A stretch of DNA of 64,000 nt, from NCBI RefSeq assembly GCF_900129295.1, contig NZ_FQUU01000001.1, positions 1-64,000 on the forward strand. Direction: 5' to 3'. The translations under genes were made by a program, and so were the position numbers. Under the pieces are notes generated by a model. That model searched no databases. It saw only the letters and a program-made list of their open reading frames with translations, and was not told the DNA's origin. This DNA is from Flavisolibacter ginsengisoli DSM 18119 (GTDB taxonomy: Bacteria > Bacteroidota > Bacteroidia > Chitinophagales > Chitinophagaceae). Shown in pieces: positions 2,253-56,570 of the stretch; position 1 is the stretch's first letter; each line of letters opens with the position of its first letter.

Positions 2253-2338
2253 GATGTCCCGAAGATATCCCGAGGATATCCCGAGGATAAGCCGACGATA
2301 AGCCGACTCTTATAGAGTCGGGATATCCTCGGCTTATC
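2253..2338. repeat. array of five tandem 11-bp units plus two inverted units
   Basis: Five adjacent 11-mers run from 2253 to 2307: GATGTCCCGAA, GATATCCCGAG (twice), GATAAGCCGAC (twice). A 9-nt linker (2308-2316, TCTTATAGA, arms complementary) follows. Then come two inverted units, GTCGGGATATC (2317-2327) and CTCGGCTTATC (2328-2338). The period is exactly 11 bp throughout and the whole can fold into a long hairpin. An array of the same design lies at 52912-52985. Confidence 0.9.
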
Positions 2339-2554
2339 TATGGCTGATGTATGACATATGGTTGGGACTTGGTAAGAGGAATTTCCGGTGTTGGGAGTTG
2401 GAAAGTTGGAGCAATGCAGGTTTGCATTAAAATTACTGGGAGAAAAGTTTATATTAAGCATTATTGGAAGCTTAACTTTAGATAGCAGGTAAACATATTT
2501 ATGCTCCGGAAATTCATTGGCAGGAACTTTAATATATTATTCTATAAAGGTTTG

Positions 2555-9383: not shown

Positions 9384-10151
9384 ATGAAATTAAAGTCTTG
9401 CGCTTTTTTATTGATGTTAGCTTCTTTTTTAACTCAAACAAGCAAAGCTCAAAATTGCGATCCCTGGATTGTACAGATATATAAAGAATTATACAATGCT
9501 ACACCTACTGCAAAGGAATGTGATATCAAAAATTATAACAACGGTAGCTGGAATAGTTATAATGAGCTCAAGGGATATATTAAACAATACAAAACTTTTG
9601 GAACGGGGCAAAAGATCAACCTGACCTGGCAATACACTCCTTCAGAAGTTACAGGCGACCAATGGATCACCCAAATTTATAAGGAGGAATATGGCCGGAA
9701 GCCTAATGCATGGGAATATAATATTCAAAACTATAATGAAGGCCATTGGCGTACATATGATGAACTAAAAAACCTGATCAGGCAATACCAATCCAGTGTG
9801 GCCAGCGCAGGAATGTTTTTAGATCTGTATGACCTGGGCAATGGACGTTTTGTAGTAGATCTGAAGATCAATGGAAAATCGGTAGCTGTAAGTATGATTG
9901 AGGGACGAGGTGGCAATGTTGTAGCATCCGGAGGTGCCAATGTGGTTGCTGCAGGTGGTGGCAATGTTGTAGCCTCAGGTGGTGCTAATGTGGTAGCTTC
10001 GGGCGGAGGAAATGTAATAGCACCAGGTGGTGGAAACCTGGTAATTAACCCCAATGTCCAGGGTTTCAGACCAGGATCTATTTATCGTATTCAATCCGGA
10101 GCCAACAGAACTATTAAAACCACAGGAAGAGGTGGTATTATAATCAGATAA
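9384..10151 (+). CDS. secreted protein with two WxxQIYKE repeats and GGGNVVAS octapeptide repeats
   Basis: The ATG at 9384 starts a clean signal peptide (MKLKSCAFLLMLASF...SKAQ); an earlier in-frame start would add an uncharacteristic leader. Two copies of a 40-residue module follow: DPWIVQIYKELYNATP...YNELKGYIKQY and DQWITQIYKEEYGRKP...YDELKNLIRQY, loosely like DUF4214-type repeats. After a short beta segment comes a run of six 8-residue units of the type GGGNVVAS/GGANVVAA, predicted to stack as a beta-solenoid or act as a flexible linker, then a short basic tail. There are no catalytic motifs. Function unknown; a surface or matrix protein is a guess. A hairpin terminator follows. Confidence 0.7.
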   Translation: MKLKSCAFLLMLASFLTQTSKAQNCDPWIVQIYKELYNATPTAKECDIKNYNNGSWNSYNELKGYIKQYKTFGTGQKINLTWQYTPSEVTGDQWITQIYKEEYGRKPNAWEYNIQNYNEGHWRTYDELKNLIRQYQSSVASAGMFLDLYDLGNGRFVVDLKINGKSVAVSMIEGRGGNVVASGGANVVAAGGGNVVASGGANVVASGGGNVIAPGGGNLVINPNVQGFRPGSIYRIQSGANRTIKTTGRGGIIIR

Positions 10152-50447: not shown

Positions 50448-51920
50448 TTATTTTTTCCATGTAAAAGAAAAGATAGATCCTGTGCCTGCTTCTGATTCCA
50501 GTTTTATTTCTTCCCCTCTTGAATCCAGAATTTTTTTAACTATAGCTAATCCCACACCTGTACTTTCAAAACTATCGCGTTCCTTCAGTGTCTGGAAGAT
50601 CATGAATATTTTTTCGTGGTAATTTTTGCTAATACCAGGCCCATTATCTGAAACAAAGAATTCCCAATGGCCGGGATATTCCTTATGGTACACTTTCACG
50701 AGACCATTTGTCTTATCATTATATTTTAAAGCATTATCAATAAGATTGGAAAAAACCTGGAGCAAGGGCAGCTTTACCGAATAGATTACGGGCATTGCTT
50801 CCGAAATGTTTATGGTAGTCCCTTCCTTCATTGAGAAATTTTCCAACACTTCTTTAAGCAATGCTTTTGTATCAATTTTTTCTTCTCCTTCTTCCTCCTT
50901 TCCCACCCTTGCATAGGAAAGCAATCCCTGTATCAGGCTTTCACCTCTTATCACCCTTCCTTTTATCAAACGAATGTATTCTGCCACTTTAGGAGTTAAT
51001 TCGTCCTTATGGTCTTCTTCAATCCAACTCACCACATTATCTATACCCCTTAAAGGTGCCTTCATATCATGCGAAACTATATGTGCAAACTGGTCCAGCT
51101 CCCTGTTCTTTTTGGTTAACTCATTAATATTAGAGGAAAGTGTTTTTGCCATATAATTCAATGAGCGCGCAAGTCCGCTTAATTCATCCTTACCAGTTTC
51201 TTCGGTAGATACATTGTAGTTACCTGCGGCAATGCTGTCTGCCATACGCACCATCTTAAGTATTCTTTTTGAAATCCTTATGGTTAGAAAGGCCACGATA
51301 AAAAGAGCCATGAGTACACTAAAAGTGATCATGAAAAAAGAAATGGTTTTTGTCATCTGCAAAGAATCATTCAACAATTTCTCACGCTCAGATCTTTTTT
51401 CATACTCAATATTCACAAATTCCCTTATTTCTTCCTGCAGCCTGGTATTTAATTTACGTTCATCACTAGACTGCATTTTTTCTCTATACAGTTTATTGAA
51501 ATATGGAAGGTTGACATCCGAGGCTTCCGCACCAATTTTTGCCTGGCGCAGGGGCTGTCCAAATTCTGATAACCACCTGTTATTCAAGCTGGCTATATCA
51601 ACAAGCAGCTTATATTGCCTGGAAGTGGTGTCAAGCTGATTGAATAAATCAGTAAGTATAAGTTTGTTTTCTGTGGCGGCGGAATCATATGCCTGCAGAA
51701 ATGAATCTTCTCCAGTCAGCAAAAACCCCCGTAACCCACTTCCCATATTGATAGTATTTCTCTGGAAGCGGTTGCTACTCCTTACAATATTTCCTGACTG
51801 GTTAACGAAATCAGTATTTTCCTTTACTCTTTCTGAAAGGCGGAAATTAATAAAGGTGGTAAATGCAAAAAGCAAGAGTATGGACAAAAAACTAAGAAAA
51901 ATAAGGTAGGAAATGCGCAT
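50448..51920 (-). CDS. membrane histidine kinase with CHASE3-like sensor and HAMP domain
   Basis: 490 residues. Transmembrane 1 (about 5-27), an extracytoplasmic helical domain of CHASE3 type (TGEDSFLQAYDSA), transmembrane 2 (about 193-215), a HAMP segment, then the kinase core: H284 in HIVSHDMKAPLRGID, N-box NLIDNALKYND, G1 DNGPGISKNYHEKIF, and G2 TGVGLAIVKKIL. The motif set is complete. It signals to the receiver encoded immediately downstream. The stimulus is unknown. Confidence 0.9.
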   Translation of the reverse strand: MRISYLIFLSFLSILLLFAFTTFINFRLSERVKENTDFVNQSGNIVRSSNRFQRNTINMGSGLRGFLLTGEDSFLQAYDSAATENKLILTDLFNQLDTTSRQYKLLVDIASLNNRWLSEFGQPLRQAKIGAEASDVNLPYFNKLYREKMQSSDERKLNTRLQEEIREFVNIEYEKRSEREKLLNDSLQMTKTISFFMITFSVLMALFIVAFLTIRISKRILKMVRMADSIAAGNYNVSTEETGKDELSGLARSLNYMAKTLSSNINELTKKNRELDQFAHIVSHDMKAPLRGIDNVVSWIEEDHKDELTPKVAEYIRLIKGRVIRGESLIQGLLSYARVGKEEEGEEKIDTKALLKEVLENFSMKEGTTINISEAMPVIYSVKLPLLQVFSNLIDNALKYNDKTNGLVKVYHKEYPGHWEFFVSDNGPGISKNYHEKIFMIFQTLKERDSFESTGVGLAIVKKILDSRGEEIKLESEAGTGSIFSFTWKK

Positions 51921-52302
51921 GCAAGGGTGGTTAAGGGCCGCAATGTAAAAAAATATAAATTTTAATTCCAGTTACCAGCTCCCAATAGTGCATTTATAAG
52001 GGAATTCTAATACCAGGCAACTAAGCACATTCTTGTGCACATTCAAAAAATAAATAAAAAAACAGGACAATAAATATTGGTGTGCATTACTGTTGTGCTA
52101 GATTATTTCGTAACTTGATGTAGAGGTGCATACTCAAAATATCAGAAATTGTCGGAAATCCTTAAGAAATATAGAAGTTATAAGGGGTTTTCAATATAGA
52201 AAGGGCAAATAAACTCAGGCATTATTTTTTAATAACCATACTTGCATCCATTCCCTTCTAAACTACTCTAATACATTTCTAAACATTATAAACTTTATTG
52301 TT
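51921..52302. other. intergenic stretch
   Basis: 382 AT-rich bp between the divergent kinase and KGG genes. The promoters of both should lie here. I recognise no gene, hairpin or repeat. Confidence 0.5.
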
Positions 52303-52545
52303 ATGGTAGAAAATCGTAACCAGGAGGAGTCCAGGGATATGAATCAAAAAAGCCGTAGAGGATTTGCGGCTATGGACCCGGAAAGACAAAGACAAATTGC
52401 CAGTGAAGGTGGACGTGCTGCCCACAAACAGGGTGTAGCCCACGAATGGAGTGCTGAAGAAGCCAGGCAAGCAGGCCGCAAAGGCGGCCAAAACTCTAAA
52501 GGCACAAGGACAAGGGATACGTCAGTCAGGGGAGAAATGGATTAA
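52303..52545 (+). CDS. KGG-motif general stress protein
   Basis: 80 residues, highly polar, with repeated short helices ending in GG: RRGFAAMDPERQRQIASEGGRAAHKQG and WSAEEARQAGRKGGQNSKG. This is the KGG/YciG-Con-10 family of small stress-induced hydrophilic proteins. It is monocistronic with its own terminator. Homologues respond to starvation or general stress. Confidence 0.88.
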   Translation: MVENRNQEESRDMNQKSRRGFAAMDPERQRQIASEGGRAAHKQGVAHEWSAEEARQAGRKGGQNSKGTRTRDTSVRGEMD

Positions 52546-52573
52546 AACAATTTGGCTCCGAAAACAAAATCTT

Positions 52574-52606
52574 AAAAGCCTTCTTAAACTGGAAGGCTTT
52601 TTTATT
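52574..52606 (+). terminator. terminator of the KGG stress gene
   Basis: 10-bp stem (52574-52583 and 52592-52601), 8-nt loop and T-rich 3' side, 29 bp past the stop. Confidence 0.9.
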
Positions 52607-52706
52607 TCCTGTTTGCATAGGCTATCCTTATCCCTACTTCACAGCATGCCTATTATTTAAAAAATCTAAATACTGGCTGCCTGGCTGGACAATACATTTA
52701 CACAGT

Positions 52707-52913
52707 TCAACCTTCCGCCCTTACCTGGCTGATTATATATTTCAGGGCAATGCACAGTGTATCAATCATCAGTTCTACCGATGCGTAAATATAATTCCCA
52801 AAAGAAACCCCGAATCAAGGTTTAAACATTGCATAGCCGTTTTCATTAAGATTATAATTCAGGATATTGTAAGAGGCCAGCCAATAAATTTCCAGGTAAG
52901 TTCCTTCAATTAT
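52707..52913 (-). pseudogene. possible gene remnant next to the 11-bp array
   Basis: One frame reads EGTYLEIYWLASYNILNY...AMFKP, a single TGA, then FGVSFGNYIYASVELMI...ISQVRAEG and a stop. Codons such as CTG, ATC and GCC resemble those of nearby genes. There is no start codon and I know no matching family, so chance openness cannot be excluded. Confidence 0.2.
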
Positions 52914-52985
52914 GCAACGGCTATGTAACGGCTATGTAACGGCTCTGTGCCGCCTATGTAACGGCTCTTTAAAGAGGCGTTACAT
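52912..52985. repeat. array of five tandem 11-bp units plus one inverted unit
   Basis: Adjacent units from 52912 to 52966: ATGCAACGGCT, ATGTAACGGCT (twice), CTGTGCCGCCT, ATGTAACGGCT. A palindromic linker CTTTAAAG (52967-52974) and one inverted unit AGGCGTTACAT (52975-52985) follow. Period and layout match the array at 2253-2338, although the sequence differs. Confidence 0.9.
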
Positions 52986-53300
52986 ACCTGTTAGAAAGGT
53001 GCCAGATGACTGGTTAAATAATGGTTGTTAAGACAATTATGGTGGTAGAAAAAATGTTTCAGCACCTTTCAGTCACAAATTGAGGTTAGTGATCTGTGCT
53101 TCCGGAAACTAACTAAAGCCCGGATTTTATATTAAGGGGAAATAATGGTCTTATTTAATAAGCCTCCAATCTGCCTTTATCACTCATAATTTATAAGTAT
53201 ATATATCAACCCTTCTACCTTGTGGAGAAATTAAATAAAGATACATTATTTATATTCTTTATAAGTTTTTTTGGTTTAATTTATAGGGGCATCAGTAAAT

Positions 53301-53333
53301 AAAAAACGTTCTGCGGGTAACAGAACGTTTTTT
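53301..53333. terminator. bidirectional terminator for the small KGG-like gene
   Basis: 13-bp perfect stem with a 7-nt loop: AAAAAACGTTCTG and its complement. The A-run on one side and T-run on the other permit use from either strand. It is 18 bp past the stop of the minus-strand gene at 53351. Confidence 0.93.
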
Positions 53334-53350
53334 ATCTTCAGAAGCGAAGT

Positions 53351-53560
53351 TTATTCACCTCCACGGCCTTTATTTCCTCCGCCACTACTGCTCCTTCCTC
53401 CACTTTGAGAGGCTTCTCCACCTTTCTTGGAAATGTCCTTTTTGGTGCGATCACTTGCAGAGGACATTCCTCTTTCAGACTTTCCGCCTTGATTTCCACT
53501 ATTATTTCCACCTTGGGTACTACGCCCAGATCCCTGGTTTTCACTTGAACTTCTTGGCAT
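53351..53560 (-). CDS. small Gly/Ser-rich KGG-like stress protein
   Basis: 69 residues, almost entirely G, S, N, K, R and Q (NQGSGRSTQGGNNSGNQGG), with a DISKKGGEASQ core like the KGG motif. It is predicted to be disordered. Second member of the hydrophilic stress group here. A longer-looking frame at 53338-53544 is an out-of-frame shadow. Confidence 0.7.
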   Translation of the reverse strand: MPRSSSENQGSGRSTQGGNNSGNQGGKSERGMSSASDRTKKDISKKGGEASQSGGRSSSGGGNKGRGGE

Positions 53561-53622
53561 AATGGTTCAATTTTGAGTTAATAAATAAGAGAACTATTTT
53601 ATATTGAAGTATTAAATAAATA

Positions 53623-53648
53623 TAAAAGCCCCATGGACCATGAGGCTT
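53623..53648 (-). terminator. terminator of the DUF3606 gene
   Basis: Imperfect stem AAGCC...CATGG/CCATG...GGCTT followed on the minus strand by TTTTATA. It sits about 10 bp past the stop at 53657. Confidence 0.75.
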
Positions 53649-53656
53649 ATTTAGGA

Positions 53657-53848
53657 TTATCTTTTATTTCCCCTGTTCTTCAGAAATTCTTCGATTTTTT
53701 CCCTGCTATTTCCAACCTGCTGGATAGCTTTCCGAACTTCTTCCTGGGAAACTCCCATTTTTTCAGCAATATGTTGCAATTCATATGCTTCGTTGCCCGC
53801 CACCCTGGAACGGTCGCGGCCATCTCTTAGATTTTTATCATCTGCCAT
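53657..53848 (-). CDS. DUF3606 family small protein
   Basis: 63 residues from the ATG at 53848 (MADDKNLRDGRDRSRVAGNEAYELQ); a start 15 nt earlier is less likely. The pattern MADDK...R-D-R-S-R-x-x-x-N-E-x-Y-E-x-x...GVSxEEVRKAIQQVGNSxEKIEEFL is the DUF3606 signature. Function unknown; such genes often sit beside stress genes in Bacteroidota and Proteobacteria. Confidence 0.85.
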   Translation of the reverse strand: MADDKNLRDGRDRSRVAGNEAYELQHIAEKMGVSQEEVRKAIQQVGNSREKIEEFLKNRGNKR

Positions 53849-53930
53849 AAGAAATGTTTTCAAAATAATATAAAATATTGTGCCATAGCATGAATCAATG
53901 TAATATTAATTCCTATATACAAACAGCGGA

Positions 53931-56570
53931 TTATACAGCCCTTTTTAAACAGGTTAAACTTTGCAATGCCTGGGATTGATGCTTAAGAACGCATTCTGTT
54001 ACGGCTACATAATTTTCTACCAATACTACTATTAATGAACCTGGCTTCCTGTGAAGGATAGCATGTTCTACCGCATCACATTCGCACCCTATGAATTGAA
54101 TTGGTTTAGCAGGATCTATTTCCCTGATCCCGGTTGTCAACAGCTCATCCATTTCCTCCTTTGACCTTCCTCTCATGTCTTCATCATGGCGGATTATGAT
54201 TTCATCAAATATGCGGGCAGCTTCTTCTGCCAGTGCAATAATATCCTTATCCCGCCTGTCACCTACTCCTGTGATAATACCTACTTTACAACTTTGTTCA
54301 AAGGAATTTATAAATTTACCCAGGGCCTTTAATCCATGTGGATTATGGGCATAATCGATCATGACCGTGCAATCATTCAATTCAATTATATTGGCCCTGC
54401 CTGGGGTGGTTTCACTTGAAGGAACGAAAGTTTGCAATGCTGTGCGTATAACACTAAGCCTTATATTATTTGTATAAGCTGCAAGCATAGCGGCTAAAAC
54501 ATTTGCAATGTTATAATCTGCCTTACCACCAAAAGTTATAGGAATATTCTGCATCTCCTCAATAGGTACGATGTGATCTGCCACCCTTAAAATCAAGTAA
54601 CCCTCCTCCGGGTAAGCAGCAATACCACCCTGACTGCAATGTTGCTCTATTCTATCACTGTTACTAAATAAAGAAAACAACGCCACTTTACATTTCACGT
54701 TTTCTTTCATGGCGTATACGAGGTCATCATCCGCATTAAGAATAGCATAACCATTAATGTTTACACTTTCCGGAACCACTGATTTCACCCTGGCAAGTTT
54801 TTCAATGGTATTGATGCCCTGCAAACCCAGGTGATCTTCAGCTACATTGGTTACTATGGCAGTATTGCACTGATCGAATGCTAATCCTGATCTCAGAATG
54901 CCACCCCTGGCTGTTTCCAAAACAGCGAATTCAACAGAAATATCCTTAAGTATGGTTTCAGCTGATTGAGGACCGGAACAATCACCTTTGTATACCAATT
55001 CATTACCTATATAAATGCCATCTGTAGTTGTATAACCTGTTACAAATCCTGCAGCCTTTGCCATATGCGCCATTAAGCGGGTGGTGGTTGTTTTACCATT
55101 TGTACCCGTAACAGCTACTATTGGAATTCTTGAATCTGTACCCTCGGGAAACAACATATCAATTACAGGTTGCGCCACATTCCTTGGAGTACCTGAATTT
55201 GGTTCAAAATGCATCCTGAATCCCGGGGCAGCATTTACCTCCAGTACCACTCCACCGTTTTCGATTAAAGGATGGGAAAGATCTGGCGCCATCACATCAA
55301 CACCACATATATCCAACCCAATGGCCCTGGCAGCTCTTTCAAATAAAACAATATTGGAAGGGTGCACTTCGTCTGTGACATCGGTAGCAGTACCGCCAGT
55401 GCTTAAGTTAGCAGTAGGCTTAAGGTAACATATGCGACCAGCTGAAAGCACGGAATCCAAATTGAGCCCTTGCTTGTTTAAATATTCAAGGCATACATCA
55501 TTGATCTCTATACATGTCAGTACATTGTCATGCCCTTTGCCCCTTCGAGGATCACAGTTAACAATTTCAATCAATTCCCTGATAGTATGATGCCCGTCGC
55601 CTGAAACAGATGCCGGTGTGCGAAGAGAAGCTGCTACGAATTTATTATTGATAACAAGAACCCTAAAATCTTTACCCTTAACGTATTTTTCAACTATAAT
55701 TTTTTCTGAATAAAGTTTTGCACGTTCAAAACCCTTCACGGCCTCTTCCCAGGATTCAACATTTATTGTAGCACCTTTTCCATGATTTCCGTCAACAGGC
55801 TTCAACACAATGGGGTAACCAATAACATCTATTACTTCTTTCAGTTTTTCCACAGAAGAAACAATTTCTCCCTGTGGGACAGGAATATATGCCCCTGTTA
55901 ATATCTTCTTGGTCCTGTGCTTATCACAGGCTATATCGACGGCTATAGAACTGCTACATCCTGTGAGGGTAGCTTCAATTCTTTTTTGCCTGCATCCATA
56001 CCCCAATTGCACGTAGGCTTCTTCGTCAAGCCGAAAAGCAGGTATTCCTCTTTTCTTTGCTTCCTGAACTATAGCATTGGTACTTGGCCCTAATCTTTCC
56101 TGCATCCAGAGTTTCTTTATCTCAAAAATGTCAGTTTCCAGGTCGTAAGATCCACCATCAATTAAGGTTTCAGCTATCCTTACAGCTGCTTGGGCAGCAT
56201 AAAAGCCTTCCTTTTCCTCAGCATATTCAAAAACGACGTGGTAAATACCTGCCTTTCCAGTGCCACGCGTTTGACCAAAACCTAAGTTAATACCTGCAAG
56301 CGATTGAATTTCCAAAGCGATATGCTCAATTACATGGCCCATCCAGGTTCCTCTTTTTACTCTTTCAAAGAAACCGCCGGGCTTGCCTTCACTGCACCTA
56401 TGCTCATATAACGAAGGAAATAAGGACTGCAACCTTTCACTAAAGCCATTAATTTTATTTGTAGGGAAATTTTCAAGGTCTTCAAGATCAAGGGTCATTT
56501 GGATCAAATTCCCGCGCTTGATAGACCAGAAATTGGGGCCTCTAAGCGCCTTCAACTCCAAAACTTTCAT
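53931..56570 (-). CDS. cphA: cyanophycin synthetase
   Basis: 879 residues with the three-domain layout of CphA: N-terminal domain (MKVLELKALRGPNFWSI ... GHVIEHIALEIQ), ATP-grasp region (about 215-480; YPIVLKPVDGNHGKGATI, VVLEVNAAPGFRMH) and Mur-ligase-like domain with the P-loop VTGTNGKTTTT (about residue 487) and YAHNPHGLKAL. It polymerises Asp and Arg (or a variant) into cyanophycin, using ATP. Length and motifs fit the family. It is divergent from the cyanophycinase gene, with 104 bp between starts, so they are probably co-regulated. Confidence 0.95.
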   Translation of the reverse strand: MKVLELKALRGPNFWSIKRGNLIQMTLDLEDLENFPTNKINGFSERLQSLFPSLYEHRCSEGKPGGFFERVKRGTWMGHVIEHIALEIQSLAGINLGFGQTRGTGKAGIYHVVFEYAEEKEGFYAAQAAVRIAETLIDGGSYDLETDIFEIKKLWMQERLGPSTNAIVQEAKKRGIPAFRLDEEAYVQLGYGCRQKRIEATLTGCSSSIAVDIACDKHRTKKILTGAYIPVPQGEIVSSVEKLKEVIDVIGYPIVLKPVDGNHGKGATINVESWEEAVKGFERAKLYSEKIIVEKYVKGKDFRVLVINNKFVAASLRTPASVSGDGHHTIRELIEIVNCDPRRGKGHDNVLTCIEINDVCLEYLNKQGLNLDSVLSAGRICYLKPTANLSTGGTATDVTDEVHPSNIVLFERAARAIGLDICGVDVMAPDLSHPLIENGGVVLEVNAAPGFRMHFEPNSGTPRNVAQPVIDMLFPEGTDSRIPIVAVTGTNGKTTTTRLMAHMAKAAGFVTGYTTTDGIYIGNELVYKGDCSGPQSAETILKDISVEFAVLETARGGILRSGLAFDQCNTAIVTNVAEDHLGLQGINTIEKLARVKSVVPESVNINGYAILNADDDLVYAMKENVKCKVALFSLFSNSDRIEQHCSQGGIAAYPEEGYLILRVADHIVPIEEMQNIPITFGGKADYNIANVLAAMLAAYTNNIRLSVIRTALQTFVPSSETTPGRANIIELNDCTVMIDYAHNPHGLKALGKFINSFEQSCKVGIITGVGDRRDKDIIALAEEAARIFDEIIIRHDEDMRGRSKEEMDELLTTGIREIDPAKPIQFIGCECDAVEHAILHRKPGSLIVVLVENYVAVTECVLKHQSQALQSLTCLKRAV

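Follow-up and report, generated by a model that had tools for sequence, protein, structure and literature searches.

The array at positions 52912-52985 of the DNA under study (the window below: 64,000 nt of Flavisolibacter ginsengisoli DSM 18119, to which all plain position numbers refer) is one member of a repeat family, B, that is dispersed through the genome of this organism. Copies of B occur at many places, their 11-bp units are conserved in a phase-specific manner, the two arms of the array do not covary, and the end of an IS-type element, ISX, is associated with B arrays. The reading that we favor, if only slightly, is that B is a dispersed intergenic non-coding element of phased 11-bp half-sites, which would be bound by a protein and serve as a landing place for a targeted transposon. 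The array looks like a DNA landmark recognized by proteins.

Anatomy of the two arrays in the window

The window holds one array of family B and one of a second family, A, with the following features.

52912..52966, plus strand: direct part of array B, five 11-bp units with the consensus nTGyrmCGsCT (direct reading, Tandem Repeats Finder, alignment of copies)
52967..52974, no strand: array B, central 8-bp palindrome CTTTAAAG (aligned copies)
52975..52985, minus strand: array B, first inverted unit AGGCGTTACAT (direct reading, alignment)
52986..52996, minus strand: array B, second inverted unit, degenerate (alignment; the right arm varies more than the left array)
52303..52545, plus strand: small KGG-motif protein encoded upstream of array B (PF10685; Pfam; context only)
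53338..53544, minus strand: context only, a reading frame that lies downstream of array B and has no Pfam family at E 0.001
2253..2307, plus strand: array A, five direct 11-bp units, GATnnnCCGAn (alignment, skeleton search)
2308..2316, no strand: array A, central 9-bp spacer TCTTATAGA, within CCGACTCTTATAGAGTCGG (alignment)
2317..2360, minus strand: array A, right arm, four inverted 11-bp units decaying outward (alignment)

The initial annotation had described five 11-mers, an 8-nt palindrome and one inverted unit at 52912-52985, and direct reading confirmed these coordinates to the base, with the direct units (52912-52966) in the order ATGCAACGGCT, ATGTAACGGCT, ATGTAACGGCT, CTGTGCCGCCT, ATGTAACGGCT. 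Tandem Repeats Finder reported 52911-52966 as a repeat of period 11 (5.1 copies, 80% matches). Within the intergenic region 52546-53340, the top lag-11 score was 35/44, a value reached by none of 2000 dinucleotide-preserving shuffles (maximum 27). For array A, the same program returned 2252-2300, with period 11 and 4.5 copies. It also found a 24/48-bp tandem repeat, perhaps coding, at 9909-10036.

A and B follow a common plan, in which five direct 11-mers are followed by a short central spacer and then by inverted 11-mers. The earlier claim that they share this architecture without primary sequence identity held for the architecture and was partly wrong for the sequence: read on the opposite strand, GATAAGCCGAC of the A units has CGGCT in common with B, and GAT-N3-C-N2-A is common to A and to arrays of two congeners, G005 and G008.

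Dispersed copies and their genomic context

A search of the genome (4.68 Mb, 55 contigs) placed family B at no fewer than 31 sites, window included, a count that rests on 40 of 50 candidates being scored, so that more may exist; family A was found at 22 places. BLAST over 1.15 Mb of this genome gave 32 B places (the 31 plus a divergent copy, L091) and 22 for A. Thirty of the 31 B copies have five units, and one (L059) has three. The divergent copy keeps five units and, by eye, has a different palindrome, TTTATAAA, and one inverted unit. None of the 54 loci (32 B including the divergent copy, 22 A) was flagged as lying inside a called gene; genes were called as crude open reading frames by a simple codon-usage script, and nine loci at contig edges had a neighbor on one side. 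Period-11 sites at a threshold of 30 in 1.2 Mb of the genome were all A or B, apart from a masked run of N, a count biased by the fact that most of these windows were picked around copies. The outcome that was to refute the initial annotation, a periodicity scan with only the two loci of the window, did not occur.

It had also been suggested that units homogenize within each locus, which did not hold. The five units of A differ by position and yet are largely constant from copy to copy, and B has few unit types, reshuffled among copies as blocks; homogeneity is therefore found across the dispersed copies of one family. In addition, two A copies (L074 and L081) are identical at 326 of 387 aligned bases of flank and at 74 of 75 in the array core. 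By eye, the B arrays of L039 and L091 occupy the same place before paralogous genes. These genes (L039:10049-10840 and L091:16880-17671) encode 264-aa proteins without a Pfam family, each preceded by a B array.

No Pfam family occurred in more than two of 48 or more than two of 42 flanking proteins, among the 25 of 80 and 25 of 82 families listed. These scans (48 + 42 = 90 proteins) drew on 99 listed proteins; the nine left out were the five of 237 aa, a pair next to L091 and both neighbors of array B in the window, and a separate Pfam scan covered one protein of the L091 pair and the two window neighbors. The five 237-aa neighbors were considered as a single IS gene and rejected, being unrelated (10-19% identity to the first). 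A plasmid search with the B region gave no match.

Copies of A have uniform orientation in each of the six contigs with at least two copies (17/17 pairs, p 0.0009); the strand with negative GC skew carries 17 of the 22 (p 0.017). B has no strand bias (18/32; same-strand pairs 14/21, p 0.10). The pattern of A hints at single-strand-dependent spread of this family, or at selection on orientation.

These observations bear on a rival explanation, which we consider somewhat unlikely: that the arrays are MITE/REP-like repeats, selfish or dead, to which no host protein binds. An unknown transposase would have spread the copies, their similarity would be maintained by recency and gene conversion, and ISX would merely prefer the palindrome or local DNA structure. 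Intergenic dispersal, flanking proteins that share no listed Pfam family beyond pairs and block-wise reshuffling of B unit types are all in its favor, and the strand uniformity of A is what insertion into single-stranded DNA could give. However, B lacks such a bias, the array core is kept far better than the adjoining shared flank in the L074/L081 pair, and no period-11 array was present within 3 kb of the five Y1_Tnp matches in the genome (one of them at a contig start), as far as sequence was fetched; the latter result led us to reject an origin from RAYT. By eye, neither terminal inverted repeats nor a target-site duplication stood out in the aligned copies.

An IS91 origin of A is likewise disfavored. 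A unit of tyrosine recombinase and IS91-type transposase (L081:10644-12700, contig C38), which holds the only PF04986 match in this genome, lies ~0.5 kb from an A array. L074 has the ~410 bp of L081 up to the array without the recombinase and IS91 genes; the apparent IS91 5′ end (by eye; common to the IS91 of G005) is located between the IS91 unit and the array and outside this ~410-bp stretch; and the congener G015 holds arrays and has no PF04986 match. The scan of other IS91 loci reached just ~1.5 kb and would have missed the case in the present genome.

The arrangement of neighboring genes was assessed at 45 loci with two neighbors: five arrays lay between convergent genes (10 expected) and 19 between divergent genes (12 expected; p 0.033), and the gap between array and nearest gene covered a wide range. 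The mild excess in divergent spacers would suit operator arrays of one regulator, i.e., a CarH/MerR-like regulon, and CarH itself binds tandem 11-bp direct repeats (PMC9304148). Such a regulon is nevertheless improbable, given that the 90 flanking proteins share no family beyond pairs (among the families listed), that distance to the nearest gene varies widely and that the published CarH unit, nnnnTnnACAn, differs from the B and A cores.

Phase-wise conservation and transposon ends at the arrays

Conservation in B follows the 11-bp register. Among ~153 B units, positions 2, 3, 7, 8, 10 and 11 are occupied by one base in 96.7-100%, and positions 1, 4, 5, 6 and 9 in just 53-77%, with two main states at most of these variable positions. 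The unit cores are bipartite: TG-N3-CG-N-CT in B and GAT-N3-C-N2-A in A and its relatives. When column variability was autocorrelated, lag 11 gave the highest value in three of the four arms (0.51 in B left, 0.53 in B right, 0.48 in A right) and just 0.20 in A left. In a phase permutation test, only B left was significant (p 0.0014), the values for B right, A left and A right being 0.26, 0.19 and 0.31; periods 13 and 15 outscored 11 in the A right arm. The phase conservation could partly reflect reshuffled ancestral unit types or gene conversion instead of selection. In the central palindrome CTTTAAAG, the first six bases are invariant in all 31 aligned B copies and the last two are kept in 29 and 28.

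The inverted arms raise the question of an RNA element, whose transcript would form a long imperfect hairpin that ends or stabilizes mRNA. Folding z-scores of -6.5 (A), -2.5 (B) and -2.6 (an array of G015) and pairing of the arms in register (B 74.7% vs at most 49.5% when slid; A 71.1% vs at most 41.5%) agree with this idea. The B covariation score likewise exceeds that of slid registers; inverted repeats must pair in any case. However, covariation of paired arms was below shuffles in B (0.098 vs 0.111) and level with them in A (0.034 vs 0.033), and mismatches between the arms are fixed (B columns 67-80 unpaired in 28/31 copies, A columns 46-124 in 22/22). In A, conservation covers the dyad-related columns GAT/ATC and CCG/CGG, and the mismatches between them are fixed. 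Moreover, few copies lie between convergent genes, an array of G005 and the divergent L091 had z-scores of 0.1 and -0.7, and an Rfam scan of 51900-53950 yielded nothing above gathering score and nothing at array B itself (its sole match was Phe_leader at 52540-52606, 26.4 bits vs a cut-off of 55). An RNA element is therefore very improbable. Arms that do not covary argue for phased sites of DNA binding over a hairpin in RNA; the arrays look like inverted protein half-sites and not like a helix kept by pairing.

A link to mobile elements came from contig ends. A B array is found within ~380 bp of the end of seven contigs, and an A array near the end of two; all seven contig-end B arrays have an ISX end alongside. 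When a 206-bp query of this end was searched against the genome, all 12 places found were within 40 bp of a B array; since the query was taken from one of the 12, 11 places are independent of the choice. By arithmetic, the arrays with 60 bp on each side amount to ~0.14% of the genome. ISX ends occur at 11 of the 31 B copies; 11 of the ends lie on the unit-1 side and the twelfth on the opposite side. Five of the 12 are diverged and located inside contigs, so the association is no assembly effect. Because a single ISX end was searched, its always facing the array is no proof of a fixed orientation of the whole element. No second ISX end was recognized among 42 of 110 contig ends, and the ISX body and other end were absent from the parts of the assembly examined.

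The ISX end contains several copies of a short motif, reminiscent of ends of the IS21 or Tn7 type. A 40-residue C-terminus beside it had no Pfam family and no plasmid match, and three of 97 relatives gave weak matches (best E 0.015). Of four matches in a search for IstB, one exceeded the cut-off, in a 486-aa frame that we take to be DnaA. A second IS end, ISY (L262, L071, L043 and L077), is beside A at two of its four places. Of the other two, one lies within ISX at B and one is on C15, where the bases shown contain no array. The reading frame next to ISY is presumably IS256-like.

Returning to the favored reading of B as a protein-bound landing place, the array consists of five direct units, a short palindromic spacer and two or more inverted units. 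Since a bipartite core is kept in each unit, we infer an oligomeric protein that would bind unit by unit; this putative protein would line a single face of the helix along successive units, in the manner of CarH, ParR and RepB on their 11-bp repeats. The ISX machinery may read the array or the putative protein on it. Given that the ISX end was found only beside B arrays, these would act at least as landing places or transposition beacons, much as REP sequences do.

Related arrays in congeners and known repeat systems

A search with B at E 1e-3 gave no match in 57 relatives. With A as the query, G015 showed weak matches (best E 1.4e-5; four A-like loci, too few to judge orientation) and G005 showed 29-base matches. 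Period-11 arrays were further sought by a lag scan, in which a site was counted if at least 30 of 44 positions matched at lag 11, with other lags as the control. In G005, 18 windows of 20 kb from two contigs known to hold copies, otherwise unchosen, contained 11 lag-11 sites vs 0, 0, 1 and 0 at lags 9, 10, 12 and 13, with six at lag 7. Twenty evenly spaced windows of G015 contained eight vs 0, 0, 3 and 0. Twenty windows of nine other congeners yielded two lag-11 sites, both in G002 with ~165 bp between them, a number that some other lags matched or exceeded in these windows. In 1.46 Mb from other Bacteroidota records (80 loci, every one surrounding the same gene; two records titled Flavisolibacter), no lag-11 site was detected even at a threshold of 29; lags 7 and 14 gave 18 and 15 sites in the same loci. 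G015 (L134-L153) also has arrays of period 7 and period 14, with 16 and 4 sites in 400 kb.

Period-11 arrays with other unit sequences occur in the congeners G002, G005, G008 and G015, and in G005 and G015 these sequences vary both within and between the two genomes. The G005 element (L120-L128, L268 and L280) is a longer dispersed repeat, most pairwise matches being 230-410 bp. Its upstream part, ahead of the array, contains a palindrome, GAGCATTTGCTC.

A skeleton, GAT-N3-C-N2-A-N, was derived from A and the G005 left arrays; G008 was not used. Three skeleton units in a row had 60 overlapping matches in F. ginsengisoli (G000), 55 in G005 and 14 in G008, the last coming from an unrelated sequence and eight array sites. 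A single match that does not look like an array was present in each of two further genomes. Of the 98 genomes searched, a total that includes F. ginsengisoli, 93 had none; G015, with its arrays of other units, is one of the 93. The reversed pattern, used as a control, gave no match in F. ginsengisoli or G005, four in G008 and one in G015. At one G008 locus, a left array of skeleton units is followed by other 11-mers, which by eye are G005-like. From these comparisons, unit sequence is species-specific, and the register and part of the core persist. The proposal of a class of elements is supported on these grounds: two families share an architecture, copies are dispersed in this genome and period-11 arrays are present in congeners.

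Among known systems, REPs offer a close comparison. They are described as dispersed intergenic dyad repeats, with particular IS elements found only at or next to them, the 'type 2' association being next to and not inside the REP (Tobes and Pareja, PMC1525189), as palindromes of 20-40 bp (PMC3733652) and as usually numbering >100 per genome (PMC2817692). Arrays A and B are likewise dispersed and intergenic, with dyad symmetry, and B resembles REPs and REPINs in being an IS insertion target (12/12 ISX ends beside B). They differ in being 75-110 bp of phased 11-bp units with 22 to at least 31 copies per family and in array ends without a terminal GTAG or CGTC tag (CGTC is inside A units, on the other strand); in addition, unlike in REP/REPIN systems with RAYT, no Y1 transposase match has an array within 3 kb, as far as sequence was fetched.

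Other systems share the 11-bp unit. CarH operators consist of tandem 11-bp units bound by the oligomer on one DNA face (PMC9304148), parC of plasmid R1 has 11-bp direct repeats bound by oligomerizing ParR (PMC9426499), and the replication initiator RepB reads the pMV158 origin, which combines three tandem 11-bp repeats with an inverted-repeat hairpin (PMC4753449). The arrays described here resemble CarH operators in their tandem 11-bp units, and by analogy may be bound by protein. However, the CarH operator lies at a promoter, has three to five units with another core and is not dispersed in dozens of copies; parC is a plasmid centromere upstream of parM, whereas our arrays are at dozens of chromosomal sites; and in pMV158 the nick hairpin is ~80 bp away from the 11-bp repeats. 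Unlike CRISPR, with its repeats of 24-48 bp and unique spacers, these arrays are contiguous 11-mers with no spacers. They fit none of the repeat families tested. Searches of the open-licence literature, judged by titles and the openings of abstracts, gave no account of such arrays in this group, and the one Bacteroidota passage of the RepRanger paper names three species without mentioning a comparable array.

A broader view, which we hold to be fairly unlikely, is that of a phase code: fast-changing 11-bp array families, particular to each species of this genus, would all be read in one helical register by a co-evolving DNA-binding protein, and transposons would have evolved to insert safely and exclusively at arrays occupied by it. 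The arrays add to bacterial repeats a dispersed kind that is defined by helical phase and not by one sequence. If the array, or a protein on it, steers insertion, transposition here would be site-directed and the system could be tested directly; the array itself may be used as bait for finding an unknown DNA-binding protein. Should the phase code be true, the role of that protein would be in chromosome organization or in the control of genome parasites.
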